Shown: positions 8,763 through 28,472 of the stretch, one piece after another
Position numbering within the stretch: position 1 is the first letter of the stretch
Layout of the letters: each line of letters starts with the position of its first letter
IMG/VR virus record: IMGVR_UViG_3300031902_000552
Coordinates: 1-36,479 of that record
Length of the DNA stretch: 36,479 bases
Strand: one strand, 5' to 3'
Source of the DNA: a virus
Program-made: the position numbers and the translations under genes
Notes under the pieces: generated by a model
What the model saw: only the letters and a program-made list of their open reading frames with translations
The model's database searches: none
Told to the model about the DNA's origin: nothing

Positions 8763-8819
8763 GTGTCAGGTTGCTTTCCCTGACACGTTAAATATACCAC
8801 GTTTCACAGTATTTGTCAA
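8763..8819 (-). promoter_or_regulatory. Strong leftward promoter with start-site inverted repeat
   Basis: On the minus strand, TTGACA (8814-8819), a 17-base spacer and TATATT (8791-8796) give a near-consensus sigma-70 promoter. The predicted start near 8784 coincides with a perfect inverted repeat, GTGTCAGG and CCTGACAC (8763-8770 and 8779-8786), separated by 8 bases. The repeat may be an operator or the 5' hairpin of the message. It drives 8735 down to 6892. Confidence 0.85.
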
Positions 8820-8842
8820 GCACGGGTTTGGGGAGGGTGAAT

Positions 8843-8884
8843 CACCACGGCCCCGATCTGCATTGCCAGATCGGGGCCGTGGTG
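8843..8884. terminator. Strong hairpin between two leftward operons
   Basis: A perfect 18-bp stem (CACCACGGCCCCGATCTG with its complement) and a 6-base loop CATTGC. No T-run follows in the leftward direction. It lies after the last gene of the 8902-17750 block and just upstream of the promoter at 8791-8819, so it likely insulates the two. Confidence 0.75.
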
Positions 8885-8901
8885 CGTTGGCGGGTGGGGG
8901 C

Positions 8902-9204
8902 TTACGAGCGGCGTGCGCGCGTGCGTCGTTGCGCCTGCCGCAGATCTTCAATCGTTCCTTTCAGCTCCACCACCGAGTCAAGATAGCGATCCGCCACGCC
9001 GCGCCAGAAGCGCGCGCTGCGCTGCCAGCGCCGCCATTGCCACGCGAACAGCAGCGCCAGGATCCACGGCAGCACGGTCAGGCCGTAGCGCAGCGTCAGC
9101 GCCAACAGCGCGCCGCCCACGGCATGCCACTGCGCGGCGGTGAGGGTGCCGGCAGCCAGGGTGCCGCCGGCGATCAGGCCGAATAGGGCCACGAATCGCA
9201 TCAT
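8902..9204 (-). CDS. Two-helix membrane protein
   Basis: A 100-residue protein with two transmembrane segments (RFVALFGLIAGGTLAAGTLT and VLPWILALLFAWQWRRW), then a basic cytoplasmic tail with a short helix (SVVELKGTIEDLRQAQRRTR). ATG 9204 overlaps the stop of the upstream secreted-protein gene (ATGA). Holins have this size and topology, but a better-placed holin-like gene lies next to the endolysin at 26552, so I leave the function open. Confidence 0.7.
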   Translation of the reverse strand: MMRFVALFGLIAGGTLAAGTLTAAQWHAVGGALLALTLRYGLTVLPWILALLFAWQWRRWQRSARFWRGVADRYLDSVVELKGTIEDLRQAQRRTRARRS

Positions 9205-9581
9205 CGCAGCCCCGCAATCGGATGTGCGGCGCGATAGGCGGCGGCTTCTGCCTGCATCTGCGCCACACGTGCGGCCAACTCATTCGCCACCGCCAGGCCG
9301 TCGCCACTGCATGAGAACGCAGTCACGAATCCATACGGATAGCCAATCGGGTCACTGACGGTCGCGCTCAGTTTCGCCGATGCGATTTCGTAGCTACACG
9401 CCTGCATGGCCGGCGCGCTGGTTTGCACTGCCAGACGCAGCCGGTAGATCGTAGCGCGACGTGGCACGACGATGGTTTGCACGACTGGGCGCGCGATGGT
9501 TGCGCGCGGCAGCGGCGCGGGGAGTGGCGCGAACGAGGTCAGCGGCAGCGCCAAAAGCAAAACAATCACGAGCTTGATCAT
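9201..9581 (-). CDS. Secreted protein with signal peptide
   Basis: A 126-residue protein starting MIKLVIVLLLALPLTSFAPL, a standard Sec signal peptide. The mature part is beta-rich (RRATIYRLRLAVQTS) with two Cys (ACSYEIASAK and AFSCSGDGLA) and ends in a short helix with AQMQAEAAAYRAAHP. ATG 9581 follows AGGAG at 8 bases and overlaps the upstream stop by 4 bases. No family recognised. It would act at or outside the cell envelope. Confidence 0.7.
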   Translation of the reverse strand: MIKLVIVLLLALPLTSFAPLPAPLPRATIARPVVQTIVVPRRATIYRLRLAVQTSAPAMQACSYEIASAKLSATVSDPIGYPYGFVTAFSCSGDGLAVANELAARVAQMQAEAAAYRAAHPIAGLR

Positions 9582-10330
9582 CGATTCCACTCCTGTGGCG
9601 ACGGCGTGATCACTACACCCGCATTGCCGCCATATGTTTCAATCCATTTCGCCTTGGCCTGTTCCTGGAGCACGCTCAGATCCGCGTCGTCGCACACTTC
9701 GACCATCTTGCCAGGAATGCCCGTTTGAGCACACGGCGGCGGCGGAGGTGGCGGGGTGGCGACCATCGGCACCTCGGGAGGAATCGGCGGCGCGGTCGGT
9801 CGAACGGCCAGATCTGCGCCAACCATCCCCAGCTGCGGCCAATCAGCGGCGCGTAGCCAGATCACGCCGCTGCCGGCGACATCCGCCTGAATCCAATCGC
9901 TGCCAAAGTGCGCGAGCGGTGTAATCACGCGGGTGGCCTCGATCTGCCAGCGCGGCGCTTCGTTGGGAGCGCCGTAGGCTGGCAGCATGGCGACGCCGGG
10001 GGTTGGGCGTTGGGGGATGGGAGCCCTGGCCGCTGCGGCGGGCGCGGCGCTGGGCACGGTGGCGGCGCGCGGTGGCATGATCGGCTGCGGCACGGCCCCG
10101 AAGCGGATGGTCAGCCCGATCAGCACCAGCCCGATCAGCCCACCGCCGATCAGCGAGATCAGACTGCGCGGCATGGGCACGCGGGCTGCCGGCGCGGGCG
10201 CGGGCGCGGCGCGGCGCATCGGTGGCGGCGCGGCATCCTCCGGTGCCGGCGTGGCCTCCTCCAGCGGCGGCGACAGGCGGATGAATCCGCGGCTGTCGCG
10301 GTCGTCGTCGGTAAAGCGGATGGTTGCCAT
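9578..10330 (-). CDS. Membrane-anchored protein with SH3-like extracellular part
   Basis: A 250-residue protein. Residues 1-55 are cytoplasmic, acidic then Pro/Ala-rich; a transmembrane helix (LISLIGGGLIGLVLIGLTIR) follows near 57-77; the remainder is outside. Residues about 125-165 (RWQIEATRVITPLAHFGSDW, then IQADVAGSGVIWLRAADW) have the pattern of a bacterial SH3 domain, which often binds cell-wall peptides. A Pro-rich linker (ATPPPPPPPCA) leads to a C-terminal segment with two Cys. ATG 10330 directly follows the stop of the upstream gene (TAAATGG). Wall sensing or surface modification is plausible, not shown. Confidence 0.68.
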   Translation of the reverse strand: MATIRFTDDDRDSRGFIRLSPPLEEATPAPEDAAPPPMRRAAPAPAPAARVPMPRSLISLIGGGLIGLVLIGLTIRFGAVPQPIMPPRAATVPSAAPAAAARAPIPQRPTPGVAMLPAYGAPNEAPRWQIEATRVITPLAHFGSDWIQADVAGSGVIWLRAADWPQLGMVGADLAVRPTAPPIPPEVPMVATPPPPPPPCAQTGIPGKMVEVCDDADLSVLQEQAKAKWIETYGGNAGVVITPSPQEWNR

Positions 10331-11545
10331 TTAGTGCCTGCTTTCGGTTATGTCGAACGACCAGCGCCCAAGATTTACCTGGCGCGCGCTTCCGTCCGCA
10401 ATCCAGCTGTCGCGCAGCGCGCCAGCGCTGGTGTCACCGATCCGAAGTTCTGCCGCCAGCTGCTTCAGCGTCCATGGTCGTCGCCCGAACGCGTCACGTG
10501 CTGCACGGAGATACGCGGCGTCGTGCGCGGTCGTCTGGCGTCGGGTGGCGTCGGGTGCCTCACGTGATTCTGACGACTGCAATCGTGAATCCGCGTGCAG
10601 CCGGAGGTCGGCAGCGTCACGACGTACCTGATCGCCGTCCCCAACCGCGATGCGCATGCCGTCCGCAGCGGGCATGGTCATCGTGGTATACGTGGCGGGG
10701 AGCGTGTCTGCACGTGCGATCTGTGCCGGCAGCGTGACAGAACGATCCTCGCGCACATGCAGGGTCGAGCCGGTCAAGCTCTCGCTGATATAGCCCATCA
10801 CATCCTGGATATCCTGATTGTCATCAAGCTCGCTGAACGGCAGCGCCGCGCCGCTGAGGGTCTTCACACTCTGCCCCACCTCGCGCAGCGTCTTATCGAT
10901 GCCGCCCACAAGGCCGCGCATCACGCCGGCCAGTTCCTCGCGCTCAGCGACCGTCAAATTCGCAAAGCCGATCAGCGCCTTCTCTTGGGCACGGAGCAAG
11001 GTGGCGCGCAGGATCGCGATATCGGCCTGGGTTTGCAACTCGTAGCGCTTGACGATATGCGCCTGCTCCAGCTGGGCGGTGAGTTCCTCGCTGGAAACGG
11101 GTGCCCAGAGCAAGGCCGGAATGAGGATGAAGCCGATCAGGCCGATAAACACCTGCTGGTAGATCAGGCCGCTCTCGGCAGTCGCCGGCTGCGCAGCCCA
11201 CCAGGCGTATTGCAGCTGGAACGAGTAGTAGAGCAGATAAATCGACGCCCCCACCACGGCGATATGCCCCCAGGTCTGGGCGTTGACCCGCTGGAGCAGC
11301 ATGCCGGCGGGACTCCAGGGGATAAGGAAGCTGACCAGCGTCGGCGGGGCCAGCACCAGGATCGCCGTGAAGGCGATGGCGATTGGCTGGCTGGTGGTGA
11401 GCTGGGATTGGACGCCCCACCAATAGATCGCGCTGGCGATCATGCTGACGAGTGCGAGCAGCAGCAACACGCTTTTGGCCGTGATCTGCATCACGCCGTT
11501 GCGGCGCGTATTGCGGCGGATGTGGTCGAGATAGCGGCTGCTCAC
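10331..11545 (-). CDS. Polytopic membrane protein with C-terminal DNA-binding-like domain
   Basis: A 404-residue protein starting at GTG 11545, which overlaps the LuxR-type gene's stop (GTGA). Four transmembrane helices occupy about residues 20-155 (VLLLLALVSMIASAIYWWGV; IAIAFTAILVLAPPTLVSFL; GHIAVVGASIYLLYYSF; VFIGLIGFILIPALLW). A long helical region follows (residues 160-250), then an acidic linker. Near the end, AYLRAARDAFGRRPWTLKQL continuing to QVNLGRWSFDI looks like a small winged helix. This layout of membrane sensor plus cytosolic DNA-binding end suggests a one-component membrane regulator. Alternatively it may be a membrane anchor for the partition complex encoded just upstream. Confidence 0.62.
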   Translation of the reverse strand: MSSRYLDHIRRNTRRNGVMQITAKSVLLLLALVSMIASAIYWWGVQSQLTTSQPIAIAFTAILVLAPPTLVSFLIPWSPAGMLLQRVNAQTWGHIAVVGASIYLLYYSFQLQYAWWAAQPATAESGLIYQQVFIGLIGFILIPALLWAPVSSEELTAQLEQAHIVKRYELQTQADIAILRATLLRAQEKALIGFANLTVAEREELAGVMRGLVGGIDKTLREVGQSVKTLSGAALPFSELDDNQDIQDVMGYISESLTGSTLHVREDRSVTLPAQIARADTLPATYTTMTMPAADGMRIAVGDGDQVRRDAADLRLHADSRLQSSESREAPDATRRQTTAHDAAYLRAARDAFGRRPWTLKQLAAELRIGDTSAGALRDSWIADGSARQVNLGRWSFDITESRH

Positions 11546-11739
11546 GATCCCACCGCCTTCTCGCGCTGCCACGCCGCGATCAGACTGTCGCGGTCGTGCG
11601 CGCCCAGCTTGCGGTACAAGACGGCGATGGCGTCGGCGACGGCGATCACGCTGATGCCCAGCTTGTGCGCGATCATGCGGTTGGAGTGGCCGGCAGCGAA
11701 GAGATCGAGGATCTCGGTCTCGCGTGGGGTGAGGTTCAT
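11542..11739 (-). CDS. LuxR/GerE-type helix-turn-helix protein (single domain)
   Basis: A 65-residue protein that is almost only a GerE domain: LTPRETEILDLFAAGHSNRM (scaffold helices), then IAHKLGISVIAVADAIAVLY (recognition helix) and RKLGAHDRDSLIAAW. This is the DNA-binding end of NarL/LuxR response regulators without a receiver, so activity must be set by abundance or a partner. It is translationally coupled to the membrane protein at 10331-11545, an obvious candidate partner. The ribosome-binding site AAGGAG is 5 bases before ATG 11739. Confidence 0.88.
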   Translation of the reverse strand: MNLTPRETEILDLFAAGHSNRMIAHKLGISVIAVADAIAVLYRKLGAHDRDSLIAAWQREKAVGS

Positions 11740-11848
11740 GGTGACTCCTTTTGGATCGTACGCTACAATACGGCGGGGTGCGCTGCGGGTGACTCCCGGC
11801 GCGTGCGGCGTGGCTCTTTCACAGCCATGCCGCGCCCCATGGGATGAT

Positions 11849-12862
11849 CTAGGTCGCCGGGGGTGATCCTCCTTCCTCCAAGAGCGCGATCAGGGCATCG
11901 ATGTGATCGAGCGCCGTGTGATAGTCCGGTAGGCGGATCATGGTGTAGCTCGGCGCATGCACGAGTCGCGCGCGTTCCTGGGTTACGTAGGCGCGCGCGG
12001 CGGTGATTGCGATCTGTCGCTGGGCCTGCGCGGCCTGCCAGGTGGCGACCTGGACGCTGCCGCCCGCGCCGTTCGTGATCAGCGCCTGATCTGCGGCCTC
12101 GGCGGACTCGTAGGCGCGACGATCTGCGCCGGTCTCGCGCTCGGCTTTGGGCGTGCTGAGTATCCGCCGCTGGGCCTCGGCCAACGCCCGCTCCGGATAA
12201 TTGTAGTCGTGCGTTTTCCAGCCATCGGGCGCGATCAGGTGCGCCGGCGCGCCACGGCGATTCCATTGCCAGCCATCGGGCGCAGCGGGCCACGGCGCGG
12301 GCGGCGGCTGGCCGGGGCCGAGACGGGTGCCGCGCCGCTCGGGCGGTGGCGGGGCGTCGTCAAAATCCGCACCGGTGCGGATTTTGGTTACACGGATCGA
12401 TGACTCGATCTGGCGTTTCGTTGGCGGTTCTGGCGCGCTCAACGCCTGATCAACAAGCTCGGGCGGCGTGGACTCGCGCGCCAGCAGCGCCGCCGTTGAT
12501 TGTGTAAGCCAGTTGCGCGCAATCGCGTCGGCATACTGTGTATTCGCCATCGCCAGGCGGTGAATATTGAGCAGCCGCTCAGCGGTGTCGTCGCTGGTGC
12601 TGGTCGCCTCTAGAAAGATCTTCCACTCGCCGTGCTTCGCCAGCTCGTGTGCCTCGTTGAGCCAGCGGCACATATCCAACAGCGCCTCGCCGCTGCGCCG
12701 ACGTGCGCCGATGTAGTTGCGCGCAATCACTTGCAGCGGCTCGGGTAGCGCACCGGCCTGCGCGGGTAGCGCGGTGCCGTCCAGGTCGGCGCGCTGGCCG
12801 ACCGTGAAGCGCGTGCCGATCTTAAGCGTCGGCGCTTTGATACGATCAGTTAGTTTCCCCAT
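11849..12862 (-). CDS. DUF3102-like protein, candidate ParA partner (ParB substitute)
   Basis: A 337-residue protein overlapping the 3' end of parA by 13 bases. Residues about 45-125 (YIGARRRSGEALLDMCRWLN; HELAKHGEWKIFLEATSTSD; DTAERLLNIHRLAMANTQYA) match the pattern of DUF3102, helix-rich proteins often encoded beside ParA on phages and plasmids. A Pro-rich linker follows, then WQWNRRGAPAHLIAPDGWK and a C-terminal helical part. No classical ParB motif is visible, so it would be the DNA-binding adaptor of an atypical partition pair. The 109 bases after its stop (11740-11848) hold no recognised gene, and no clear terminator. Confidence 0.7.
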   Translation of the reverse strand: MGKLTDRIKAPTLKIGTRFTVGQRADLDGTALPAQAGALPEPLQVIARNYIGARRRSGEALLDMCRWLNEAHELAKHGEWKIFLEATSTSDDTAERLLNIHRLAMANTQYADAIARNWLTQSTAALLARESTPPELVDQALSAPEPPTKRQIESSIRVTKIRTGADFDDAPPPPERRGTRLGPGQPPPAPWPAAPDGWQWNRRGAPAHLIAPDGWKTHDYNYPERALAEAQRRILSTPKAERETGADRRAYESAEAADQALITNGAGGSVQVATWQAAQAQRQIAITAARAYVTQERARLVHAPSYTMIRLPDYHTALDHIDALIALLEEGGSPPAT

Positions 12863-13690: not shown

Positions 13691-13730
13691 TGACAAGATG
13701 ACAAGATGACAAGATGACAAGATGACAAGC
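13691..13730. repeat. Five tandem 8-bp repeats upstream of parA (candidate centromere/operator)
   Basis: Five head-to-tail copies of TGACAAGA (the last ends in C) fill 13691-13730, between the parA start (13671) and the stop of the preceding gene (13730). Short tandem iterons just upstream of parA are a known form of partition site and autoregulatory operator in plasmids. Related simple repeats occur at 22690-22711 (GACAAGGAGACAGGGAGACA), so a low-complexity origin is also possible. Confidence 0.6.
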
Positions 13731-14164
13731 TAATTCTTCCTCAGCTGCCGCGCTGCCACCTCGGCCAGCGCCTCGCGCACCTGGTCGTCGGGCAGGGTGG
13801 CCTTGGGATCGCTGCTCTTCTCGGTCGCGACGGCCAGCAGCGCATCCATGCTGGCGAGGTCGTCCTCGGTGTATGTCCACTCGGCAAACAGCTTCTGGAT
13901 CGCCGCCAGGATCCCGGCCGCCGTGGCACCATCAGGGCCAACGTACCAGCTGGTCAGGTCGGTGCCGTACAGCGACATCCATGTGTGCCAGTGGCCGCTG
14001 ACGCGGTGCTGCACGGTGCCGGCGGCGACGACGTGCGCATCGAGCGTGCGGTGCTGCTCGGCCGCGTTCCAAGATTCTTCGGTTGGTAGCTGGTTCGTGA
14101 CCTGGCCGTGGCGGATCGCGTCTGGGTTGGGTGGTGGGACGCGCCGGCCTTTCTGCTTGCTCAT
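13730..14164 (-). CDS. Hypothetical protein upstream of parA
   Basis: A 144-residue protein starting MSKQKGRRVPPPNPDAIRHG. The N-terminus is basic; the middle has many His and Trp (HRVSGHWHTWMSLYGTDLTS); the C-terminal half is helical and acidic (FAEWTYTEDDLASMDALLAV). The start at ATG 14164 overlaps the upstream stop by 4 bases; the frame extends further upstream to 14242 but that part lies inside the neighbour. No family recognised. Its stop falls on the last base of the repeat array. Confidence 0.65.
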   Translation of the reverse strand: MSKQKGRRVPPPNPDAIRHGQVTNQLPTEESWNAAEQHRTLDAHVVAAGTVQHRVSGHWHTWMSLYGTDLTSWYVGPDGATAAGILAAIQKLFAEWTYTEDDLASMDALLAVATEKSSDPKATLPDDQVREALAEVAARQLRKN

Positions 14165-17817: not shown

Positions 17818-17846
17818 TTGACACAGAATCCATTTTCCGGTATGAT
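17818..17846 (+). promoter_or_regulatory. Strong rightward promoter
   Basis: TTGACA (17818-17823), a 17-base spacer and TATGAT (17841-17846): five of six bases match in the -10 and all six in the -35. It diverges from the initiator gene and leads into a short transcript ended by the terminator at 17979. Confidence 0.88.
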
Positions 17847-17884
17847 TCTTGCAGCAGCATAGTTCACTCCTGAAGGCGTTACGC

Positions 17885-17956
17885 ATGGGGCATCATCCCG
17901 GTGTAGCGCCTTTTGGTTATCTGGCGAAAGCAAAACGGGCGTTCGTGGTAGAATGA
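17885..17956 (+). CDS. Possible 23-residue leader peptide
   Basis: ATG 17885 opens a short frame (MGHHPGVAPFGYLAKAKRAF, then VVE) with GAAGG 7 bases upstream. It lies inside the short transcript and stops 22 bases before the terminator stem, an arrangement that would let translation influence the hairpins. No recognised family. It may be chance. Confidence 0.3.
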   Translation: MGHHPGVAPFGYLAKAKRAFVVE

Positions 17957-17978
17957 TCCGTATCAACTCCTTTGGTTT

Positions 17979-18014
17979 GGGGAAGGAAGCGCACTCAGCT
18001 TCCTTCCCCCTTTT
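17979..18014 (+). terminator. Intrinsic terminator
   Basis: A perfect 12-bp stem, GGGGAAGGAAGC (17979-17990) with GCTTCCTTCCCC (17998-18009), a 7-base loop GCACTCA, then C and TTTT. It ends the short transcript from 17853. Confidence 0.92.
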
Positions 18015-18171
18015 GCGTTGTCAAAACCACTTACAGCATGCTGATCTCCCCTCTCGCGAACCACCACGGCCCGCGCGGCTGGTGCATTGCCATGCGCGCA
18101 ATGCCTCAATCGCCCACGTCGTCGCGTTCCCAAGGTGGCGAAAGTCGCCGCTGTGCTAGAGGAGGTTTCTG

Positions 18172-19089
18172 GTGGCTGTCATCGCATTCCCGCGCCCCGT
18201 ATCGCGCACGCGTGCGCAAACAATGCGCACGCACATTCCGTCATGGCGAACCGCGCGGCTCGCTGACGGACGGCGACCCCGTGGCGTCGCCTCGTATGTT
18301 GCCAAGCTGGAACAGTTTCTGGAGTGGTCCGGCGAGATCACGCCGAACGATCTCACGGCTGACCTGATCGCGCGCTACAAGATCGCGCTGCATGAGCGCA
18401 ATCTGGCGATGGGAACCGTGCGCCATTGCCTGACCGTGCTGCGCGCATTTTGCGACTGGGGTGTCGCGCAGGGGCTGCTCGATAGTAATCCCGCGCTCGC
18501 GGTCGGCCATCCGCACGTGGAAGAGTCCGATCCTGATCCGCTCACGCGGGCGAAAATCGATGCCTTGCTGGCCGCGATTGACGAGCCGCCACAGTCACAC
18601 AAGCTGACCTGGCGGCGCAACCGGCGGGCGGTCATGCTCGGCCTGTATTGCGGTCTCCGAATCGCGGAGATCGCCGAGCTGAAATGGGGCGATGTCGATC
18701 TGGCGCGGGGCGAGATTATCGTCCGGAAAAAGGGCGGCAAGGGCGGCAAGAGCCGCGTGGTGCCGATCTGTGATGAATTGCTGGCGGAGCTGCGCCTGGC
18801 CAAGCACCAGCGGGTGGGCGATGCGGTGGTGGATCAGGGCGACGGGACGGCGCTGAGCGTCAAATCGCTCGGCCACATTTACGAGCGCTGGTTACGGCGG
18901 CGCGGGATCGTGTTGCATTCCCACCAGCTCCGCAAGACCTTCGCAACGGAGCTGTATATCGCTGGCGAGGATCTGGCGACGATTCAGCGGCTGCTCGGGC
19001 ATCGTGATCCGAAGACCACCATGCGCTATTTGGGGGCCAGCGCCCCCAAGGAACGGGCGGCGGTGCAGAAATTAAAATTCCGTAAGTAG
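18172..19089 (+). CDS. int: Tyrosine recombinase 1 (integrase / Xer-like)
   Basis: A 305-residue tyrosine recombinase with an N-terminal core-binding domain (YVAKLEQFLEWSGEITPNDL) and a complete catalytic set: Arg162 (YCGLRIAEIAEL), Lys in the KGGKGGKSR beta-hairpin, His251-x-x-Arg254 (HQLRKTF), His277 (LLGHRDPKTT) and nucleophile Tyr286 (MRYLG). Length and spacing fit XerC/D-like enzymes, so it may integrate the prophage or resolve dimers of a circular form. GTG 18172 stands 6 bases after AGGAGG. Between the terminator at 18014 and this gene, 18093-18114 contains GCATTGC and GCAATGC in inverted order, a possible arm or core site. Confidence 0.95.
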   Translation: MAVIAFPRPVSRTRAQTMRTHIPSWRTARLADGRRPRGVASYVAKLEQFLEWSGEITPNDLTADLIARYKIALHERNLAMGTVRHCLTVLRAFCDWGVAQGLLDSNPALAVGHPHVEESDPDPLTRAKIDALLAAIDEPPQSHKLTWRRNRRAVMLGLYCGLRIAEIAELKWGDVDLARGEIIVRKKGGKGGKSRVVPICDELLAELRLAKHQRVGDAVVDQGDGTALSVKSLGHIYERWLRRRGIVLHSHQLRKTFATELYIAGEDLATIQRLLGHRDPKTTMRYLGASAPKERAAVQKLKFRK

Positions 19090-20281: not shown

Positions 20282-20340
20282 ATACGAACGCCCGGTTATG
20301 CAGCCTGTAACGACGGCTCTGCATGGCCGGGCGTTCGTAT
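20282..20340 (-). terminator. Hairpin overlapping the 3' end of the repressor gene
   Basis: ATACGAACGCCCGG (20282-20295) pairs perfectly with CCGGGCGTTCGTAT (20327-20340); ATGCAG/CTGCAT adds an inner stem. The right arm lies within the last codons of the repressor, so stop codon and terminator are interlocked. Confidence 0.7.
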
Positions 20341-20565
20341 GTTCGGATCATATTCCAAAAGTGCGTCCAAACCAACCCCGTAGAACGCGCAGATTTTTGC
20401 CAGCACATCCCCATCATAGCGTTCGGTGTCGCCCTGCTCCAGCCGCGTAAGCGCCCCGCGATCAACGCCGGCCTTCTCGGCAACCTCTACCAGCGGCACG
20501 CGCCGCCCCTCTCGCAACTCCAGTTCTTTGCGGAGCTGAAACGCCTTCGATATGATTCTTGCCAC
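20296..20565 (-). CDS. XRE-family phage repressor
   Basis: An 89-residue single-domain Cro/C1-type regulator: RRVPLVEVAEKAGVDRGALT (helix-turn-helix), then RLEQGDTERYDGDVLAKICA and FYGVGLDALLEYDPN. No C-terminal cleavage domain, so control by RecA-style autoproteolysis is unlikely. GTG 20565 has an ideal AGGAGG 7 bases upstream; longer starts at 20604-20607 lie beyond that site and overlap the promoter. It is divergent from 20718 across a symmetric operator, the standard immunity-region layout. Confidence 0.9.
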   Translation of the reverse strand: MARIISKAFQLRKELELREGRRVPLVEVAEKAGVDRGALTRLEQGDTERYDGDVLAKICAFYGVGLDALLEYDPNIRTPGHAEPSLQAA

Positions 20566-20594
20566 CGCGATACCTCCTTGATAAGTTGTAGCTG

Positions 20595-20707
20595 ACTCTA
20601 CCATCAAATATTGCTGTTGTCAACCAGCATATTCATGCTTGACAGCGGCAATATCAGTGCTATAATGTAGCTACAGAACAACAATACGTTGTTTCATAGC
20701 TACAACG
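20595..20707. promoter_or_regulatory. Divergent promoters and symmetric operator (immunity region)
   Basis: Rightward: TTGACA (20639-20644), 16 bases, TATAAT (20661-20666), both hexamers perfect. Leftward: TTGACA (complement of 20618-20623), 17 bases, TAGAGT (complement of 20595-20600). A dyad of two 15-base arms (20609-20623 and 20639-20653, 13 of 15 paired) places each arm over one -35 box, so one bound repressor complex can shut both. The rightward leader holds GTAGCTA (20667-20673) and TAGCTAC (20697-20703), which can form a start-site hairpin. Confidence 0.9.
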
Positions 20708-20717: not shown

Positions 20718-21491
20718 ATGCAGAAGCGCATCACCTACAACCGCGACAACCACGACTTCGATATGTTCCTGGACGACGCCTACCAGGGCAGCCGCGCACG
20801 GCACATTGAGGCCGAAGTGGAGCTGGATCGCATCGCCTACGACGCCGCGACGCACACCGCCGGCCCGCTCGACATGGCCGTCGAAGGCGCGCTGGAGCGG
20901 CTGGCCGAAGAGAGCGCGGGCGCGATGCGGCTGGCGCGGGCGGACAAGGACAAGGCCGGCGGCACCTTCTGGCAGCGCGCCGCTACCAGCTACACCAACG
21001 CCCTGATTGAATATCGCAAGGGCGTGCGGCCTGAGCTGCTGGCATCGGGCGCGTGGCTGCTGCCCAGCCGGCGGGCGGGCGAAGCACCGCATATCGTCCG
21101 GATGGATGGTGATTGGATTTGTTCGTGTAAGGCCGGCGCAGCGATGCATTGGAGCATCGCCCTGATTATCGGCTGCGAGGTCGCACAGGACGCCATGCAG
21201 CAGTTCGACGATGGCCCGCTCGACGATGATGCCGACCTGGTGGCCCAGGCCGCGCCGCTGATCGATGCGCTCGATACGCTGATCGACTGCGATCAGGATG
21301 CCGACGGCGATGAGCCGATGCGCTGGCGCATCGGGGCGGTGATGGCGGCGCGTGTGGCGTGCGACCCGCCGAACGAGCCGAATCCACTTGGCGATGAGGA
21401 AGGCGACAGCGAGCCGCCAGATCGCCCGCGTGCGCCGCTGTGGGATCGCATCGCAGCAGCACGGCGCGGAACCTATGCCTACGCGGCGTAA
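20718..21491 (+). CDS. First early rightward gene, SWIM-like zinc motif
   Basis: A 257-residue protein, first behind the repressed rightward promoter, with GGAG before ATG 20718. The N-terminal half is helical and acidic; residues about 130-155 read RMDGDWICSCKAGAAMHWSI, resembling a SWIM zinc motif (CxC...CxH) in which the third Cys is replaced by Met. A very acidic stretch follows (DDGPLDDDADL; CDQDADGDEP), and the C-terminus is basic. SWIM domains bind DNA or proteins. As first gene of the lytic-type operon it may be an early regulator or host take-over protein; no closer family is recognised. Confidence 0.7.
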   Translation: MQKRITYNRDNHDFDMFLDDAYQGSRARHIEAEVELDRIAYDAATHTAGPLDMAVEGALERLAEESAGAMRLARADKDKAGGTFWQRAATSYTNALIEYRKGVRPELLASGAWLLPSRRAGEAPHIVRMDGDWICSCKAGAAMHWSIALIIGCEVAQDAMQQFDDGPLDDDADLVAQAAPLIDALDTLIDCDQDADGDEPMRWRIGAVMAARVACDPPNEPNPLGDEEGDSEPPDRPRAPLWDRIAAARRGTYAYAA

Positions 21492-22766: not shown

Positions 22767-23051
22767 TTAGCGCGGGCCGAGGAAGGTGGCCGATGGCTTC
22801 CAGTGCGCGGTCGTCTTGGCCGGGATCTGCATCGGCAGCCGGGTATGCGGGTTGATGCCGTTCCGGGCGCTGCGCTGGCTGAGCTTGAAGCTGCCGAAGC
22901 CGGTCAGGGTGACGGCCTGGCCGGCCTGGATCTTCTGCTGAATGGTGTCGAGGGCGGCGTTGATCACCTGCGCCACCTGCTTCTGGGTCAGGCCGGTGCT
23001 CGTCGCCACCTCGGCGATCAGGGCGGTCTTGCCGTACGTGGTCTCGCTCAT
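22767..23051 (-). CDS. HU/IHF-family DNA-bending protein
   Basis: A 94-residue protein of normal HU length: KTALIAEVATSTGLTQKQVA (helices 1 and 2), TIQQKIQAGQAVTLTGFGSF (the conserved GFGSF strand), then a beta-arm segment with RNGINPHTRLPMQIPAK. The DNA-binding arm Arg/Pro residues are present. Phage HU proteins compact DNA and aid replication, recombination or excision. AGGAG is 6 bases before ATG 23051. Upstream on this strand are two TTGACA hexamers (complements of 23101-23106-type TGTCAA at about 23100 and 23114) but no clear -10. Confidence 0.93.
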   Translation of the reverse strand: MSETTYGKTALIAEVATSTGLTQKQVAQVINAALDTIQQKIQAGQAVTLTGFGSFKLSQRSARNGINPHTRLPMQIPAKTTAHWKPSATFLGPR

Positions 23052-23125: not shown

Positions 23126-23200
23126 CTGTGCTATACTAGCGCGAGATAACAGAAAACCCCTCCCTATGCTTGGCGGCTAGGAGGGGCTTCTGCTTATCTC
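23126..23200 (+). promoter_or_regulatory. Extended -10 promoter with structured leader RNA
   Basis: TG-C-TATACT (-10 at 23132-23137) is an extended -10 promoter without a clear -35. The predicted start (about 23144) coincides with a long hairpin, 23143-23200: GAGATAA pairs with TTATCTC at the base, AGAA with TTCT, and CCCCTCC with GGAGGGG near the top. The structure precedes the DUF4145 gene by 80 bases. The neighbouring HU gene points away, so this is a leader and not an upstream gene's end. Confidence 0.7.
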
Positions 23201-23280: not shown

Positions 23281-23859
23281 ATGTCGCGGCGCATGGCACC
23301 GGAGCAACTGCCACTCTGGCACGGGGCTGACTCGATTGAGGCACGGATCTATCTGTGTGGACACTGCGGATCACAGGTCGGATCGGAGAAGGGATGGCAC
23401 ACCGTCCATCCTGGCCATGCGATCTATCTTTGTTCAGGGTGTGGCCGGCCAACCTATTTCACCTATGGGACACAGATCCCAGGTGTGGCCTATGGAGGCG
23501 ATGTGGAATACGTACCACCCGAAAGCGCCGCGATCTATCGCGAGGCGCGCAACTGTATGAGCGTCAACGCCTACACGGCGGTGGTGCTGCTCTGCCGCAA
23601 GCTGCTGATGCACATTGGCGTGGCGGAAGGTGCCGAGGAAAACAAGCCCTTTGCGTTCTACATGAACTACCTCGTGGATGCCGGGTATATTGCGCAGAAA
23701 TCGCGCCCATGGGTGGATCGCATTCGCAATAAAGGGAACGATGCCAATCACGAGATTGCGCCCATCACCCGCACCGACGCAGAAGAGCTGATCGCCCTGT
23801 CGCAGATGGTGCTCCAGCTCGTCTACGAATATCCCGGCCGTTTACCACCCCCGGCATAG
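23281..23859 (+). CDS. Zinc-ribbon plus DUF4145 protein
   Basis: A 192-residue protein starting ATG 23281 (AAAGGGG upstream). Residues about 27-60 contain CGHCG and CSGCG, a four-Cys zinc ribbon. Residues 85-185 (YREARNCMSVNAYTAVVLLC; RKLLMHIGVAEGAEENKPFA; WVDRIRNKGNDANHEIAPIT) are the DUF4145 domain, a HEPN-related helical fold found alone and fused to type I restriction subunits. The RNase motif of active HEPN proteins (RxxxxH) is not obvious, though RNKGNDANHE is close to that form. A defence or anti-defence role is possible. Confidence 0.82.
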   Translation: MSRRMAPEQLPLWHGADSIEARIYLCGHCGSQVGSEKGWHTVHPGHAIYLCSGCGRPTYFTYGTQIPGVAYGGDVEYVPPESAAIYREARNCMSVNAYTAVVLLCRKLLMHIGVAEGAEENKPFAFYMNYLVDAGYIAQKSRPWVDRIRNKGNDANHEIAPITRTDAEELIALSQMVLQLVYEYPGRLPPPA

Positions 23860-23943
23860 TCCACCAGTGGGCCTTTGCCCATCTGGTAACACGCACGCGC
23901 TACACTACTCGTGCTGATTTCTTTTAATAAACAGACTCAGCGG

Positions 23944-24000
23944 CAGTATTAGCCAGCAGCGAATATGCGCGGCGATCCTCAATGGATCGCCGCGTTTTTT
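23944..24000 (+). promoter_or_regulatory. Leader of integrase 2 with promoter-proximal terminator
   Basis: A weak -10-like CAGTAT (23944-23949) precedes CAGCAGCGAATATGCG and a perfect 11-bp stem, CGCGGCGATCC (23968-23978) with GGATCGCCGCG (23984-23994), then TTTTTT. Only 14 bases follow before ATG 24015, including its GGAG. A complete intrinsic terminator in front of the gene implies attenuation or termination of upstream read-through. Confidence 0.75.
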
Positions 24001-24014
24001 ATTGGAGCACATCG

Positions 24015-24980
24015 ATGTCCACCGCCTTGACCATCATCCAGCCCGCCGCCCTTGCCCAGATCGACCACGCCGGCGCGGCCGCGAACCGCGCAGCGGCCGG
24101 CCACGTCTTCAGCGCCTACGCCCAGCGCCGCCCGGTCAACACGCTGCGCCGGCAGAAGGCCGACCTCGATTGCTTTGTACACTTTCTCTGTACATGCGGC
24201 ATCGATGTACAGGAAAATCTTACATCCGATCCGGCGGCCTGGGCCGGTATCACCTGGGGACTCGTCGCGGCGTTCGTGCAGTGGGAGCTGAAGGCGGGCT
24301 ACGCGATTGGCAGCATCAACGTGCGGCTCTCGACGATTAAGACCTACGCGAAGTTGGCCACGCAGGCCGGCGCGCTCAGTCCGACCGAGTACGCGATGAT
24401 CCGCACGGTGGCCGGCTTTCGCTTCGGCGAGGGCCGCAACGTCGATGCCCAGCGCGCGCAGACGCGGCTCGGGGCGAAGAAGGAACATACCACCCCGATC
24501 GGGGCTGGCCAGGCGCTGGCGCTGAAAGACCAGGCCGATTCCCGTGACCAATTGCTCATGTGCATCCTGCTCGATCATGGGCTGCGCTGCGGTGAGGTGG
24601 CCGCGCTGGATGTGGCGAGCATCGACCTGGTGGCCGGCACGCTGACCTTCTACCGTGAGAAAGTGCATAAAACGCAGACGCACCGTCTGAGCAGCGACAC
24701 GCTGCGGGCGGCGATGAAGTACCTGGCTCAGCCGCGATCCGGGTCGCTCTTGGGGATGTCCACCCGCGAGATTAATCGCACAGTCGGCGAGCTGGGCGCT
24801 TGCCTGGGCATCGAACGGCTGAGTCCGCACGATATGCGCCATTTCTGGGCAACCGCTGCCGTGCGCGGCAAGACCGACATCAAGAGCTTGCAGGATGCCG
24901 GCGGATGGAGTTCGCCGGCGATGCCGCTGCGCTACGTCGAGTCAGCCGCGATTGCGAATGATGGTGTGCGGCTGGGCTAG
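24015..24980 (+). CDS. Tyrosine recombinase 2
   Basis: A 321-residue tyrosine recombinase. N-terminal core-binding domain: FSAYAQRRPVNTLRRQKADL to AGYAIGSINVRLSTIKTYAK. Catalytic residues: Arg191 (DHGLRCGEVAALD), Lys in REKVHKTQTHRL, His272-x-x-Arg275 (HDMRHFWA), Trp298 in place of the second His (AGGWSS), Tyr307 (LRYVES). The His-to-Trp change is found in active integrases. It is not a close copy of integrase 1. Start ATG 24015 has GGAG at 7 bases; the frame open to 23982 runs through the leader hairpin. Its terminator-controlled leader suggests regulated expression, possibly an excision or inversion function. Confidence 0.93.
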   Translation: MSTALTIIQPAALAQIDHAGAAANRAAAGHVFSAYAQRRPVNTLRRQKADLDCFVHFLCTCGIDVQENLTSDPAAWAGITWGLVAAFVQWELKAGYAIGSINVRLSTIKTYAKLATQAGALSPTEYAMIRTVAGFRFGEGRNVDAQRAQTRLGAKKEHTTPIGAGQALALKDQADSRDQLLMCILLDHGLRCGEVAALDVASIDLVAGTLTFYREKVHKTQTHRLSSDTLRAAMKYLAQPRSGSLLGMSTREINRTVGELGACLGIERLSPHDMRHFWATAAVRGKTDIKSLQDAGGWSSPAMPLRYVESAAIANDGVRLG

Positions 24981-25145
24981 GGTGGGCAGGCCCGCCCGTG
25001 GACGCGCGCAGCGCTTTTTTCGCAGCGCCGTACCGGCCCGCTGCGCGGCGAAGCGCCAGCGGTCGCGCTCGACGCGCATGGCGTGCAGCGCCGCCTCCAG
25101 GCGGAGCGCGCGGATGCACAGATCGGTGGCGTGACTATTCGGCAT
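24942..25145 (-). CDS. Small basic protein, antisense to integrase 2 end
   Basis: A 67-residue protein (MPNSHATDLCIRALRLEAAL, then HAMRVERDRWRFAAQRAGTA), helical and strongly basic. It overlaps the preceding gene by 11 bases and runs 39 bases into the integrase 2 coding end on the other strand. Function unknown. Confidence 0.55.
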   Translation of the reverse strand: MPNSHATDLCIRALRLEAALHAMRVERDRWRFAAQRAGTALRKKRCARPRAGLPTLAQPHTIIRNRG

Positions 25146-25566
25146 GGCGCGTCCCCTCAATCGCCTGTTTTAGCGCATCCATTTGCGCGATATGCTTGCC
25201 GCCGTCGTCAATCAGCTGCATCAGCAGCCCCACGATCTCGCCGCGACTGCCGGCGCTGGCCGAGGCGTCAGTGACCGCCTGTGCATCGGTCAGCACCCCG
25301 GCGGCGGTGCTGGCGCTGGCGTGGCCGCGCGCCTCCGTGAGCATCTGCGCGGCCCAGCCGACCATGATCGCCATCTGCTCTTTCTGGCTGCTGTACACCT
25401 CGCGCAGCTGCCCGACCAGGCCCAGTGTTTCGAGCACGTCGCGCATGGATTGGCGCACTTCCTCGACCGGCACGCGCGTCGATAGCGCCAGCTCGATCCG
25501 CGCCAGCGTGGCCTCGATCACGGCGGTGCGCTTCGCCAGCTCCGCCATGTCGCTATCCGCACTCAC
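25135..25566 (-). CDS. Coiled-coil protein
   Basis: A 143-residue, largely helical protein: MAELAKRTAVIEATLARIEL, then VEEVRQSMRDVLETLGLVGQ, a Gly/Ser/Ala hinge (SASTAAGVLTDAQAVTDASA), and a final helix (IVGLLMQLIDDGGKHIAQMD). ATGA-type overlap with the SH3-like gene. It may form a trimer or bundle; role unknown. Confidence 0.65.
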   Translation of the reverse strand: MSADSDMAELAKRTAVIEATLARIELALSTRVPVEEVRQSMRDVLETLGLVGQLREVYSSQKEQMAIMVGWAAQMLTEARGHASASTAAGVLTDAQAVTDASASAGSRGEIVGLLMQLIDDGGKHIAQMDALKQAIEGTRHAE

Positions 25567-25832
25567 GCGCGCACCTTTTCGAGCATGCCGAGCCAGACAT
25601 AGCGTTGGTCGAGCGATTGCACCCAGATGTTACTCTGGCCGAAGCCGGTGATTGTCTGCGACGTTCCCACCACCGGATCGCCGTACCAGTCCGCGCCGCA
25701 GCGCAGGCGCGTGATCATGTCGGATCGCTGATTCGCCGCTGTGCGAACGGTCGCGCCGCCATTTGCCCAGGCCAGCACGCGGTAGTGTGTCGGCGGATTC
25801 ACCAGGATCGCCGCTTTATTCATGGTTTGCAT
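25563..25832 (-). CDS. Small SH3-like (SH3b) protein
   Basis: An 89-residue protein. From residue 17, YRVLAWANGGATVRTAANQR then SDMITRLRCGADWYGDPVVG and NIWVQSLDQRYVWLGMLEKV follow the bacterial SH3 pattern ('-A-VR-A-N--S--I--L--G---' ending in a W-G strand). No signal peptide, so it would act inside the cell or as a virion part. First gene of a three-gene minus-strand operon set between plus-strand genes. ATG 25832 or ATG 25823 may be used; no ribosome-binding site decides. Confidence 0.68.
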   Translation of the reverse strand: MQTMNKAAILVNPPTHYRVLAWANGGATVRTAANQRSDMITRLRCGADWYGDPVVGTSQTITGFGQSNIWVQSLDQRYVWLGMLEKVRA

Positions 25833-25914
25833 GGGTGCATGCTACCACGCGGGCGCGGGTGCTCCGGTTCCGATCAGGGTTTGCTACGCCGCTGCTATGA
25901 TTCGGTGCTACGGA

Positions 25915-25977
25915 TGTGCTAGTATGGTGGCAGCAGCGAACACGCGCACGGCCCATCTGGGTCTGTGCGCGTGTTTA
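25915..25977 (+). promoter_or_regulatory. Extended -10 promoter with leader hairpin
   Basis: TG-C-TAGTAT (-10 at 25920-25925), then CAGCAGCGAA (25931-25940) at the expected start, and a stem ACACGCGCAC (25940-25949) with GTGCGCGTGT (25965-25974) followed by TT. The gene to the left is on the other strand, so the hairpin belongs to this transcript's leader. The start codon of the next gene follows at 25993. Confidence 0.72.
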
Positions 25978-25992
25978 GTATCAGGAACGATC

Positions 25993-26352
25993 ATGAACAG
26001 CTCCGCAAACATTGAAGACTTTGGCAGCGACGGCTACACGTATATTCGTGGCGATTTACAGCGCTATCAGACCAAGCGCGTGCGCACGATCATGCCGTCC
26101 GAGCCGGAGAACAATGGCATGTTCGAGACGCGCATGCACGGCCTGGCGCTGCAATTGCTGCTGCGCCCCGAGATCGCCTCGGTCTCGACCGAGATCGACA
26201 AGGTCAACGGCTCGGATGTGAAATGCACGGTCACGATCATCGAGTCGCCGCGCGTTGCGCCGATCGCGCCCGATGCGCGCCCCGCCGGCGCTGGTCGCTT
26301 TGGGCCGCGTGGCGTGCGTGGTGAGTCGCGCGGGCGGCGCTCGACTGACTAG
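25993..26352 (+). CDS. Hypothetical protein
   Basis: A 119-residue protein starting ATG 25993 (MNSSANIEDFGSDGYTYIRG) with AGGA upstream. Central HGLALQLLLRPEIASVSTEI and VKCTVTIIESPRVAPIAPDA give an alpha/beta core; the C-terminus is a disordered Gly/Arg tail (RGVRGESRGRRSTD) that may bind nucleic acid. Separated from the lysis genes by repeats and two terminators. No family recognised. Confidence 0.68.
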   Translation: MNSSANIEDFGSDGYTYIRGDLQRYQTKRVRTIMPSEPENNGMFETRMHGLALQLLLRPEIASVSTEIDKVNGSDVKCTVTIIESPRVAPIAPDARPAGAGRFGPRGVRGESRGRRSTD

Positions 26353-26360
26353 GTTCCATT

Positions 26361-26409
26361 GTTCGTCGTTCGTCGTTCGTCTATCGTCTATCGTCCTTCG
26401 TCTATCGTC
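26361..26409 (+). repeat. Seven degenerate 7-bp tandem repeats
   Basis: Seven head-to-tail units of consensus (G/T/C)(T/A)TCGTC: three GTTCGTC, then TATCGTC, TATCGTC, CTTCGTC, TATCGTC. They lie in the untranslated space between 26352 and the tandem hairpins. This could be a slipped-strand product, a protein-binding array, or a copy of a host intergenic simple repeat. Confidence 0.8.
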
Positions 26410-26531
26410 CTTGACCAGCCAGCGGTAACGCGCGGTCATCCTCATCCGAGGGTGGCCGCGTTTTTGTTCGCAGTTCTTGACCAGCAGCTCAGTAGCGCGG
26501 TCATCCCCAGTCTGGGGGTGGCCGCTTTTTT
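26410..26531 (+). terminator. Two tandem intrinsic terminators (duplicated leader element)
   Basis: Two related blocks each start TTGACCAGC and contain GCGCGGTCATCC. First: stem CGCGGTCATCCTC (26431-26443) with GAGGGTGGCCGCG (26448-26460), 13 bp with G-T wobbles, then TTTTT. Second: GCGGTCATCCCC (26497-26508) with GGGGGTGGCCGC (26514-26525), then TTTTTT. The second T-run ends 21 bases before the lysis-operon start. They insulate, or attenuate into, the holin-endolysin operon. Confidence 0.85.
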
Positions 26532-26551
26532 ATGTTCGGAGTAAGCGCATC

Positions 26552-26896
26552 GTGATGATCAGCCCACCCACCCACGCCGGCAAGATCGCCGACGCCCAGC
26601 GCCGGCGCCTGGAAGTCCTGGAGATCCAGGCGGCGGAGCTGGGCATCTCCACGCCGCCGCAGATCACGACCGAGATCGAGGATCTGCGGCACGCCCTGGC
26701 CGGCGATGTGCAGCCACTGGAGCCGATTAGCGCCGCGCAGCGCTACCAGGCGACCATGCGCGCCGTGATGCTGCTCAGCCAGCAGCTGGCGGCGGTCGAG
26801 GTCAAAGTCGAGCGCGTGTACTGGCTGCTGCCGCTGATTCTGTTTGTGTATTTATTTGCCTCGTTTGCATTGGAGCATCTGAAATGGCCGATTTGA
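26552..26896 (+). CDS. Holin-like protein with adaptor-type N-terminal segment
   Basis: A 114-residue protein. N-terminal helix pair RRRLEVLEIQAAELGI then STPPQITTEIEDLRHALAGD, a coiled coil (LLSQQLAAVEVKVERVYW), and one C-terminal transmembrane helix (LLPLILFVYLFASFALEHL). The membrane-anchored coil resembles XhlA-type lysis proteins, and it overlaps the endolysin gene by 13 bases. The N-terminal 'RRL--LE-QAA-YGI-TPP-I--EIEDL' pattern is familiar from bacterial NACHT/TIR signalling proteins, an unusual combination. Start GTG 26552 (GGAG 11 bases upstream) or ATG 26555. Confidence 0.68.
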   Translation: MMISPPTHAGKIADAQRRRLEVLEIQAAELGISTPPQITTEIEDLRHALAGDVQPLEPISAAQRYQATMRAVMLLSQQLAAVEVKVERVYWLLPLILFVYLFASFALEHLKWPI

Positions 26897-27549
26897 CATT
26901 CCGTTCCGCGCCGCGCATCTCGGCGGCGAGCTTCACCCGCGTGCTGACCCGCGCCGCCTCACCAGTTGCTGGCGATGCCGCGAATCTGTACGCGATTATC
27001 GTGTCCTACGGCCTCGATCCGGCGGTCGCGCTGGCCATGTTCGCGCACGAGAGCCGCTATGGCAACGATGGCGTGGCGCATCGCTCGTTGAACTGGGGCA
27101 ACCTGCGGCATGGGGCGCGGGCGTACAAGATTGAATCCGGCTTTGAGTTTTACCGCAATTGGGCTGACAGCCTGCGCGACTGGTGCGAGCTAATCAGGGA
27201 TCGCTACGTTGGCCAAGGGCTGGCCACGATTGAGCTGGCGATTCCGGTGTACGCGCCCCCTAAAGATCATAACGTCCCGGCGAAGTACATCGCCGCCGTC
27301 CATCAGCTCGTGGCGGCCTGGCAGGCGTCGGATGCCAATGATGCGGGCCTCGGGCCGGTCTCGCGGATCGTGGCCGTCAGCGTGGCGCGCGTGCGGGCAC
27401 TGCCCAATCTCGAAGCCGCGGTTGTCAGCACGAAAAGCAAGGGCACAGCGGTTGGCGGGCTGCTGGTCGTGGGCGCGCTGGTGCAGGGGAGCGTGACCTG
27501 GCTGAAGCTGCGCGACGGGCAGTTTATGCACAGCTCGGTGCTGCTATGA
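26884..27549 (+). CDS. Endolysin, glucosaminidase-like with C-terminal SH3-like domain
   Basis: A 221-residue cell-wall hydrolase. Residues about 33-155 (YAIIVSYGLDPAVALAMFAH, ESRYGNDGVAHRSLNWGNLR, FEFYRNWADSLRDWCELIRD, PAKYIAAVHQLVAAW) follow the FlgJ/LytG-type glucosaminidase fold, with probable catalytic Glu56 in AHESRYG. Residues 170-221 (EAAVVSTKSKGTAVGGLLVV; VTWLKLRDGQFMHSSVLL) form an SH3-like wall-binding end. No signal peptide, so export depends on the holin-like neighbour. Located at the head of the late operon and not after the tail genes. Confidence 0.85.
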   Translation: MADLTFRSAPRISAASFTRVLTRAASPVAGDAANLYAIIVSYGLDPAVALAMFAHESRYGNDGVAHRSLNWGNLRHGARAYKIESGFEFYRNWADSLRDWCELIRDRYVGQGLATIELAIPVYAPPKDHNVPAKYIAAVHQLVAAWQASDANDAGLGPVSRIVAVSVARVRALPNLEAAVVSTKSKGTAVGGLLVVGALVQGSVTWLKLRDGQFMHSSVLL

Positions 27550-27866
27550 GCGAGCACATCATTCAAGCCTATCAGCTGTTCCACGTCGTCGATGCGAAGA
27601 ACGAGACCATCGGCCACGTCAAGACCTACGCGCGGCATGGGGTCAAGTGGATCACCGATGTGTGGGTCGATCCTGAGCATCGCTGCCAGGGCCTGGCGAC
27701 GCGGCTGATCCACGCGGCGCTCGATGCGCACGTCGGCGAGGCGATCTATCTCGACGTGCATGGGTATACCAATCGACCGCTGAGCGATGACCAGCTGACC
27801 AGCTGGTACGGCACCTTTGGGTTTGTGGCCGTGGCGGGCGCGCCGGGCATGCTGGTGCGTTTGTAG
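27546..27866 (+). CDS. GNAT-family N-acetyltransferase
   Basis: A 106-residue short GNAT protein. The acetyl-CoA motif VDPEHRCQGLATRL (residues 41-54) has the R/Q-x-x-G-x-A loop; flanking strands KWITDVWV and AIYLDVHGYT, and the C-terminal YGTFGFVAVAG, complete the fold. Start overlaps the endolysin stop by 4 bases (ATGA). Phage GNATs may modify host proteins or RNA-polymerase factors; the substrate is not apparent. Coupling to a lysis gene is unusual. Confidence 0.85.
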   Translation: MSEHIIQAYQLFHVVDAKNETIGHVKTYARHGVKWITDVWVDPEHRCQGLATRLIHAALDAHVGEAIYLDVHGYTNRPLSDDQLTSWYGTFGFVAVAGAPGMLVRL

Positions 27867-27908
27867 TTCCCTGATATTCCCTGTTTCAAACAGGCGCTGG
27901 AAACAACG

Positions 27909-28361
27909 ATGAGTCAATTTCAACCCGGCATCAGCGGGAATCCAGCTGGCCGGCCGCGCAAGACGGAGCGCTACGCCGCGCAAAGCCAGACCGCCAACGA
28001 CCAGATCGCCCTCAAGCTGCCGGCGCTGCTGAAGGTGCTGCTGCGCGCTGCGCTCGATGGCAGCGCGGATATCCACGAAGACATTGACGAAGAGTGGGTG
28101 CCGGCGATTCTCGTGACCAAACGCGATAGCGAGGGCGGCGAGATGCCCCAGTTCACCGCCGATTCGCCCGAGGTCAATGCCGACGGCATGGTGTGTGTGA
28201 AGCGCCGGGTCAAGCGCAGCGTGCGCAACCGCGCCGCCGACGTGCGCGTGGCAGCCGATCTGCTCGATCGCATTCTGGGCAAGGCGGTCGCCGAGGTCGA
28301 GGCTGAGGGCGATGCAGCTGGTGATCATGTGGTGACGGTTCGAGTCGAGTACATCGGTTAA
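27909..28361 (+). CDS. terS: Terminase small subunit-like protein
   Basis: A 150-residue protein opening with MSQFQPGISGNPAGRPRKTE, the N-terminal signature of DUF5681-type phage proteins next to large terminases. The body is helical (ANDQIALKLPALLKVLLRAA; RAADVRVAADLLDRILGKAV), in line with an oligomeric packaging-site binder. It lies directly before the large terminase. A hairpin, CCTGTTT/AAACAGG, is at about 27877-27893 upstream. Role by position and motif; DNA specificity unknown. Confidence 0.78.
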   Translation: MSQFQPGISGNPAGRPRKTERYAAQSQTANDQIALKLPALLKVLLRAALDGSADIHEDIDEEWVPAILVTKRDSEGGEMPQFTADSPEVNADGMVCVKRRVKRSVRNRAADVRVAADLLDRILGKAVAEVEAEGDAAGDHVVTVRVEYIG

Positions 28362-28420
28362 TGATTATATCGTCGTGAAGTACACGATAGTTATTCTTAC
28401 TATACTTTTCTTGCTCAAAG

Positions 28421-28472
28421 TATCATAAGATCAGCAGCGAAACGCGCGATCTCTTACGAGGTCGCGTTTTCT
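28421..28472 (+). promoter_or_regulatory. Promoter-like -10 and leader hairpin before large terminase
   Basis: TATCAT (28421-28426) precedes ATCAGCAGCGAAACGCG and a stem AACGCG (28441-28446) + ATCTC with GAGGT + CGCGTT (28458-28468), one 2-base bulge, then TTTT. ATG 28473 follows 2 bases after. The only possible ribosome-binding bases (GAGG) are inside the stem, so folding would hide them. The region 28362-28420 is distinctly AT-richer than the genome. Confidence 0.65.

Follow-up and report, generated by a model that had tools for sequence, protein, structure and literature searches.

A repeated leader of promoter, GCAGCG motif, and terminator-like stem in phage genomes, with a possible role as an attenuator of late genes

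Results

Leaders and genes in the virus record

The stretch of DNA analyzed here, termed the window, is the whole of IMG/VR virus record IMGVR_UViG_3300031902_000552 (36,479 bases, 64% G+C); the element of interest is a short leader, comprising a GCAGCG motif, a stem, and a T-tract and often preceded by a -10 promoter element, that recurs ahead of its genes. The record encodes portal, scaffold, major head, and sheath-like proteins and a ParA homologue, and has a tyrosine integrase gene (24015-24980, plus strand; Pfam PF00589, PHROG 216), a second tyrosine integrase gene (18223-19089), and a gene for the terminase large subunit (TerL; 28473-29750, plus strand). The TerL is 59% identical to that on a contig of Kouleothrix aurantiaca (Chloroflexota, Roseiflexaceae), and 59-60% identical to those of Kouleothrix L127, G061, and G062; for the L127 relative there are matches to PHROG terminase families. 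Judged from these sequences, the source is likely a temperate phage of a bacterium related to K. aurantiaca. Because both ends of the record carry the same sequence (window ~1-127 is repeated at 36353-36479, with minus-strand matches at 86 and 36438, an offset of 36352), the record probably represents a circle, or else a circularly permuted molecule that has a direct terminal repeat.

Five copies of the leader are present, all on the plus strand. The first (23954-24000; 31.4 bits; z = -5.1), with the motif CAGCAGCG, a stem at 23967-23995, and a T-tract, lies before the integrase gene at 24015 and behind a possible but weak -10 (CAGTAT, 23944-23949, plus strand; 3/6 score). The second (25931-25977; 25.8 bits; z = -6.6) has the same motif, a stem at 25939-25975, and a short T-tract; it follows the extended -10 TGCTAGTAT (25917-25925, plus strand) and precedes a gene of unknown function (25993-26352, plus strand). 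Another gene of unknown function (26555-26896, plus strand), which matches no family, is preceded by two copies in tandem, i.e. the third (26416-26466; 17.7 bits; z = -4.7), with an imperfect motif, CAGCCAGCGG, a stem at 26430-26461, and a T-tract, and the fourth (26482-26530; 26.1 bits; z = -5.6), with the motif CAGCAGCT and a complementary AGC, a stem at 26497-26525, and a T-tract. The fifth (28432-28471; 30.6 bits; z = -3.8) follows a modest possible -10 (TATCAT, 28421-28426, plus strand) and has the CAGCAGCG motif, a stem at 28444-28467, and a T-tract reaching into the start codon of TerL, which is directly behind it. In a search with a covariance model derived from 17 copies, these five rank highest. 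Degenerate short repeats (GTCTATCGTCC, GACGACCGACGACC, and similar) occupy intergenic DNA just upstream of some leaders (window 26352-26415, L127:40-90, and L127:820-870).

The original prediction, made from the window sequence, listed seven stem-loops following promoters; all are present at or near the positions given, and that list lacked two comparable stems, at 26430 and 26497. Folded as RNA, the nine leaders have z values of -3.2 to -6.6 relative to dinucleotide shuffles, with at most 2 of 200 shuffles equaling them. On a stricter ungapped stem score those at 8763 (19.4), 20667 (13.5), and 23143 (16.8) are unremarkable, a score of 16-20 being reached by 7-23% of random positions, and those at 25940 (32.5), 23968 (30.5), 17874 (25.3), and 28441 (22.2) are rarer (~2-5% of positions). 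As predicted, three stems share a preceding sequence, CAGCAGCGAA, which occurs exactly three times in the window (23954, 25931, and 28432). As an exact motif it is too narrow, the real core being GCAGCG(A); at least 120 viral stretches have CAGCAGCGAA with GCGCG nearby, nearly all lacking a stem. The combination GCAGC[G/T] plus stem plus T-tract occurs four times in the window, compared with a mean of 0.1 (maximum 1) over 60 dinucleotide shuffles.

The proposal that most recognizable promoters are followed by one class of stem-loop thus stands with respect to the stems and the shared motif, but not as to a single class, and in two of the seven cases the promoter is weak. The promoters at 8819 (minus strand), 17818, and 20639 fit sigma-70 at 11-12 of 12 positions; those at 25920 (TGCTAGTAT) and 23132 (TGCTATACT) match only as extended -10 elements, and those at 23944 (CAGTAT) and 28421 (TATCAT) are weak when taken alone. 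Opposite-strand genes had also been placed upstream of the stems at 23143 and 25940; the former, an HU gene (22767-23051, minus strand), is confirmed by a Pfam match, and the latter (25563-25832, minus strand) is called from coding statistics only.

Layout of the leader family across genomes

Copies were sought by a pattern scan of viral contigs with a fold filter, in whole records, and in the genomes of Kouleothrix relatives. Some 40 copies sharing a single layout were found in six draft genomes, G001 (Kouleothrix), G032, G038, G056, G080, and G094, where prophage location was judged by neighboring gene families, and in nine viral records, the window included. Four to five copies were found within one genome, and the covariance model recovered further copies in related loci, most with the same -10.

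The layout begins with a -10 of the form TGnTATA(C/G)T, followed after 4-20 nucleotides by GCAGCG, mostly as GCAGCGA. After a further 0-8 nucleotides comes a G+C-rich stem of 10-17 base pairs (bp), mostly perfect and usually starting GCGC; a T-tract abuts the stem, a Shine-Dalgarno sequence usually follows, and the start codon is ~40-115 nucleotides past the motif. In the TerL copies of the window type the start codon comes straight after the T-tract, leaving no room for a Shine-Dalgarno sequence. Because the T-tract abuts the stem in nearly all copies (at least four T within the next eight bases in 35 of 40), and with stems of 10-17 bp mostly without mismatch, the 3' part has the form of an intrinsic terminator, at which RNA release would be expected.

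The main rival to a terminating function is that the stem is a 5' protective hairpin blocking 5'-dependent decay, and that the U-tract before the Shine-Dalgarno sequence serves as a landing site for the ribosome (S1), with no termination. The stem would begin ~10-25 nucleotides from the predicted start, as such a hairpin should, and a Shine-Dalgarno sequence follows in most copies. Protection, however, needs neither GCAGCG nor a T-tract, let alone one abutting the stem in the manner of a terminator, and the TerL copies without room for a Shine-Dalgarno sequence do not fit a landing site; we regard this explanation as unlikely, though deserving of serious consideration.

An extended -10 lies upstream of the stem in 25 of the 40 copies and, because of its position, the element would be met by polymerase coming from the leader's own promoter. 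This arrangement bears on the possibility that the stems are insulators, i.e. ordinary terminators that stop upstream transcription, the gene itself being expressed from a promoter elsewhere or by weak read-through. The TerL copies of L127 and L264, which lie between co-oriented genes and have no clear -10, are as an insulator would have them. Most copies, with their upstream -10, are not; moreover, the two copies of L463 are back to back and divergent and so cannot end upstream genes, the neighbor at 25563-25832 is on the opposite strand, the TerL copies leave no promoter space between stem and start codon, and a fixed motif would be superfluous. A purely insulating role is therefore considered improbable.

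Searches of the window and 16 loci against Rfam gave no match above the gathering threshold, and a permissive search of 23900-28500 likewise gave none, so ruling out a known Rfam family. A general host leader was also considered and set aside, the full element not being clearly recognizable at the host genes of 400 related genomes. As far as the open-access literature and Rfam allow it to be tested, the leader family is new.

Genes behind the leaders

Corresponding genes of different phages bear the leader, including those for TerL, the portal, scaffold-like proteins, a membrane protein, and the family of the gene at 25993. One TerL family is behind the leader in the window, Kouleothrix, G061, and G062, and a second, unrelated one (phrog_38) in G038, G056, and G094; because it is present in phages with unrelated terminases, the signal has been either kept or spread across lineages. 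The leader also precedes the portal gene in G080 and L474, an amidase gene in G063, and, in G038, G056, and G061, the gene for a small membrane protein that may be holin-like. It further precedes acidic scaffold-like proteins in G038, G056, G032, and G080, so called from composition and position near portal or head genes, with no PHROG match. The 25993 family occurs together with the leader in G061, G062, and G063, and probably in L291.

No such leader precedes TerL in relatives at ~52% identity or less, and in the L301 relative (59% identity) there is a stem with T-tract and a diverged motif. Separately, the gene after TerL in G061 and G062 has before it, at L261:8798-8852 and L264:3073-3127 (minus strand), a stem plus T-tract in which the GAGAGCGCCGAGAGCGCC repeat has diverged; this may be a drifted family member.

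Coupling of promoter, motif, and stem

Two tests were built so as not to depend on searches that require a stem. In the first, the 30 bases upstream of 28 copies, which earlier searches had not used, were scored for an extended -10; a score of at least 6 was reached in 9 of the 28, a set that includes orthologues (G061/G062) and is hence not fully independent, as against 1.2% for shuffled upstream sequences and 0.34% for positions drawn at random from the same records. In the second, extended -10 plus GCAGCGA plus CGC was sought alone in 120 genomes, giving 32 distinct sites compared with 3 for the reversed pattern. A stem and T-tract follow all 10 of those sites that are located in phage-type contigs, whereas conserved sites at host genes (encoding a CBS-domain protein, a transaldolase, and a thioredoxin reductase, names read by eye from protein starts) have no comparable stem. 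Because phage and host-gene sites differ in this way, the -10/motif pair by itself does not bring a stem, and motif and stem are coupled in the phages.

The host sites with extended -10 and GCAGCGA, in Chloroflexota relatives, are at L433-L436, L438, and L457 (CBS-domain protein), L450-L454 (transaldolase), and L444 and L445 (thioredoxin reductase); it may be that GCAGCGA has a role of its own at host transcription starts, distinct from that in the phage leader. When the -10/motif pattern is sought in viral contigs from other hosts, it gives mostly stemless sites.

RNA structure and covariation

With the stem arms registered by hand, 96% of cells are paired and 8 of 9 pairs show changes on both sides, a count that the hand registration makes partly circular. 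Unsupervised RNAalifold of four scaffold leaders, an independent but small check, recovered the stem with compensated pairs, together with a short hairpin of 3 bp (GCG-N5-CGC) that stacks against it. Among the nine copies with a spacer long enough for the comparison, the spacer ends in the exact complement of the last three bases of the motif in seven, as compared with 0 of 20,000 spacer shuffles; these include the sole copy with a GCT motif, the complement of which is AGC. In many other copies the 3' side of the mini-hairpin shares bases with the bottom pairs of the main stem. A 3-bp mini-hairpin of the form GCG-N3-6-CGC is thus suggested by the sequences. The covariation expected of relatives was in part found, in that stem sequence varies and pairing is retained.

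The same variation bears on whether the element acts as DNA, i.e. whether GCAGCG and the dyad are bound by a phage repressor or activator at the transcription start, RNA folding being incidental. The motif is asymmetric and has a single orientation relative to the gene, and repressor-type dyads do occur in the window (20667), as this explanation would have it. An operator, however, would be expected to show the reverse of what is seen, i.e. dyad sequence varying among copies with pairing and T-tract kept, and the spacings from -10 to motif and from motif to stem are variable; a DNA-level element is very unlikely.

Stems outside the family

Four of the stems listed originally differ from the leader. 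A strong promoter on the plus strand with GCAGCAGCA right after its -10 is followed by a stem with UUUUG (17818-17915; z = -3.2) that the covariance model did not recover; this stem, at 17874, may be a degenerate family member. The region 17818-18223 comprises the promoter, two terminator-like stems (17874 and 17979), and then, downstream, the second integrase gene.

The other three are non-members. At 20667-20704 (plus strand), a TAGCTAC dyad lies between the divergent promoters of a helix-turn-helix repressor gene (20296-20607, minus strand) and a gene at 20718 (plus strand); dyads of this type span 20584-20704 and are probably operators, of this phage's immunity type. A perfect 8-bp dyad, TGTCAGG/CCTGACA (8763-8786, minus strand), is at a strong promoter and has neither motif nor T-tract. 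The hairpin at 23143-23200 (plus strand), which is long and bulged and has a G+C-rich core, lies behind TGCTATACT and between the HU gene (minus strand) and a DUF4145 gene (plus strand); it likewise lacks GCAGCG and a T-tract.

Elsewhere in the window, 11542-11739 (minus strand) encodes a 65-residue protein with little beyond a helix-turn-helix of the LuxR type (GerE), which makes it a candidate for a small regulator. No tRNA or tmRNA was found in the window.

Discussion

Proposed mechanism

The leaders are most readily understood, in our judgment and with somewhat better than even confidence, as dispersed, cis-acting, promoter-proximal attenuators of Chloroflexota phages that are relieved by antitermination acting at GCAGCG and the mini-hairpin. 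The GCAGCG(A) motif would be at the 5' end of the RNA, and the stem and T-tract would form an intrinsic terminator halting transcription ~45-60 nucleotides past the start, so that each unit would be off by default; with the starts predicted from the -10 elements, the putative terminator lies a few tens of nucleotides past the start and before the first gene. During late infection, antitermination would act at the 5' motif, with its 3-bp mini-hairpin stacked on the main stem, relief coming from a factor of host or phage origin or from a direct action of the RNA on RNA polymerase, and many dispersed late units could be switched on together. A conditional stop is favored because an element that stops its own promoter makes sense only if it is conditional.

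The original suggestion of an attenuator RNA family accordingly holds for the GCAGCG copies, where position, motif, stem, and T-tract are conserved before corresponding late genes in diverse phages. It does not hold at 8763, 20667, and 23143, sites without motif and T-tract; a put RNA as such and a phage factor are, for their part, conjectural.

Several observations weigh against attenuation relieved by antitermination. Most copies came from searches requiring a stem, a bias that the two tests described above were designed to avoid, and 15 of the 40 have no convincing -10. The leaders of the integrase gene (24015) and of a ParB-like gene (G080) do not fit a purely late-gene scheme. BLAST revealed no trans factor common to the carrier phages, though a host-encoded or strongly diverged one is conceivable. 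A second NusG-family gene is present in G001, G032, and G056, with only one found in G038, G080, and G094 (draft genomes).

Two candidates for a shared factor gained no support. A single protein (window 13730-14164) was found in both the window phage and the G038 region, and none of the other five host genomes searched has it; a NusG paralogue of the RfaH/LoaP type was not found in all hosts. Nor was a conserved -35 or -35/-10 spacer element seen, nothing upstream of TGnTATAnT being conserved among 25 copies.

It is conceivable, though doubtful, that the leader acts in cis without a phage protein, the GCAGCG mini-hairpin engaging freshly started host RNA polymerase, which would then pass the adjoining terminator, while polymerase derived from upstream would stop. 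Were this so, every late unit would be gated separately, in phages whose terminases are unrelated.

No paper on gene timing in Chloroflexota phages was found in the open-access literature, and knowledge of the subject appears very small. The leader provides a concrete repeated regulatory element, composed of promoter, motif, and stem; under attenuation relieved by antitermination, leader RNAs should be short and late genes, many and dispersed, should share a single switch. The element is also of use in annotation, by marking the starts of late transcription units where phage genes have no recognizable relatives.

Comparison with known systems

The leader has features in common with several studied systems. 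The SAS/ESAS elements of cluster K mycobacteriophages likewise recur in a fixed orientation immediately ahead of many phage start codons and contain inverted repeats (PMC3203893). They consist, however, of a 13-bp GGGATAGGAGCCC at the start codon and 17-bp conserved repeats, with no T-tract or -10 in the description consulted (PMC3203893), and motif and layout differ from theirs in all of the copies listed here. The put RNA of phage HK022 is similarly a 5' leader RNA with stem-loops tied to suppression of termination, and it binds RNA polymerase, but is ~70 nucleotides long, with two larger stem-loops, lies before early genes, and has no terminator stem after it (PMC9378689); the leaders here have instead a putative 3-bp mini-hairpin and a terminator-like stem.

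In the Caulobacter gene transfer agent, phage-type structural genes are turned on by antitermination through GafYZ, but there is one promoter, the binding element is between -35 and -10, and the terminator is past the first gene (PMC11150451). With the lambdoid Q proteins acting at PR'/tR', a promoter-proximal terminator holds late genes off until antitermination, as proposed here; that system, by contrast, has one late promoter, with a Q binding element between -35 and -10 and a -10-like pause element, neither of which is evidently conserved in the present leaders (PMC6606751).

With AlpA of Pseudomonas aeruginosa, the intrinsic terminators of alpB and PA0807 begin 26 and 54 nucleotides past the transcription start (PMC7969949). 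As envisaged for the leaders, these terminators are ahead of lysis and phage-like operons, and several dispersed units share one switch (PMC7969949). AlpA, however, has its binding element between -35 and -10 and has two target operons (PMC7969949), whereas the conserved element here is downstream of the -10 and would be transcribed, and there are four to five copies in one genome; no AlpA-like factor was found. Because the stretch between -35 and -10 shows nothing conserved and the search for a factor gave none, the leader is not classed with AlpA or Q; yet, by analogy, it would work most like AlpA and like Q at PR'-tR'.

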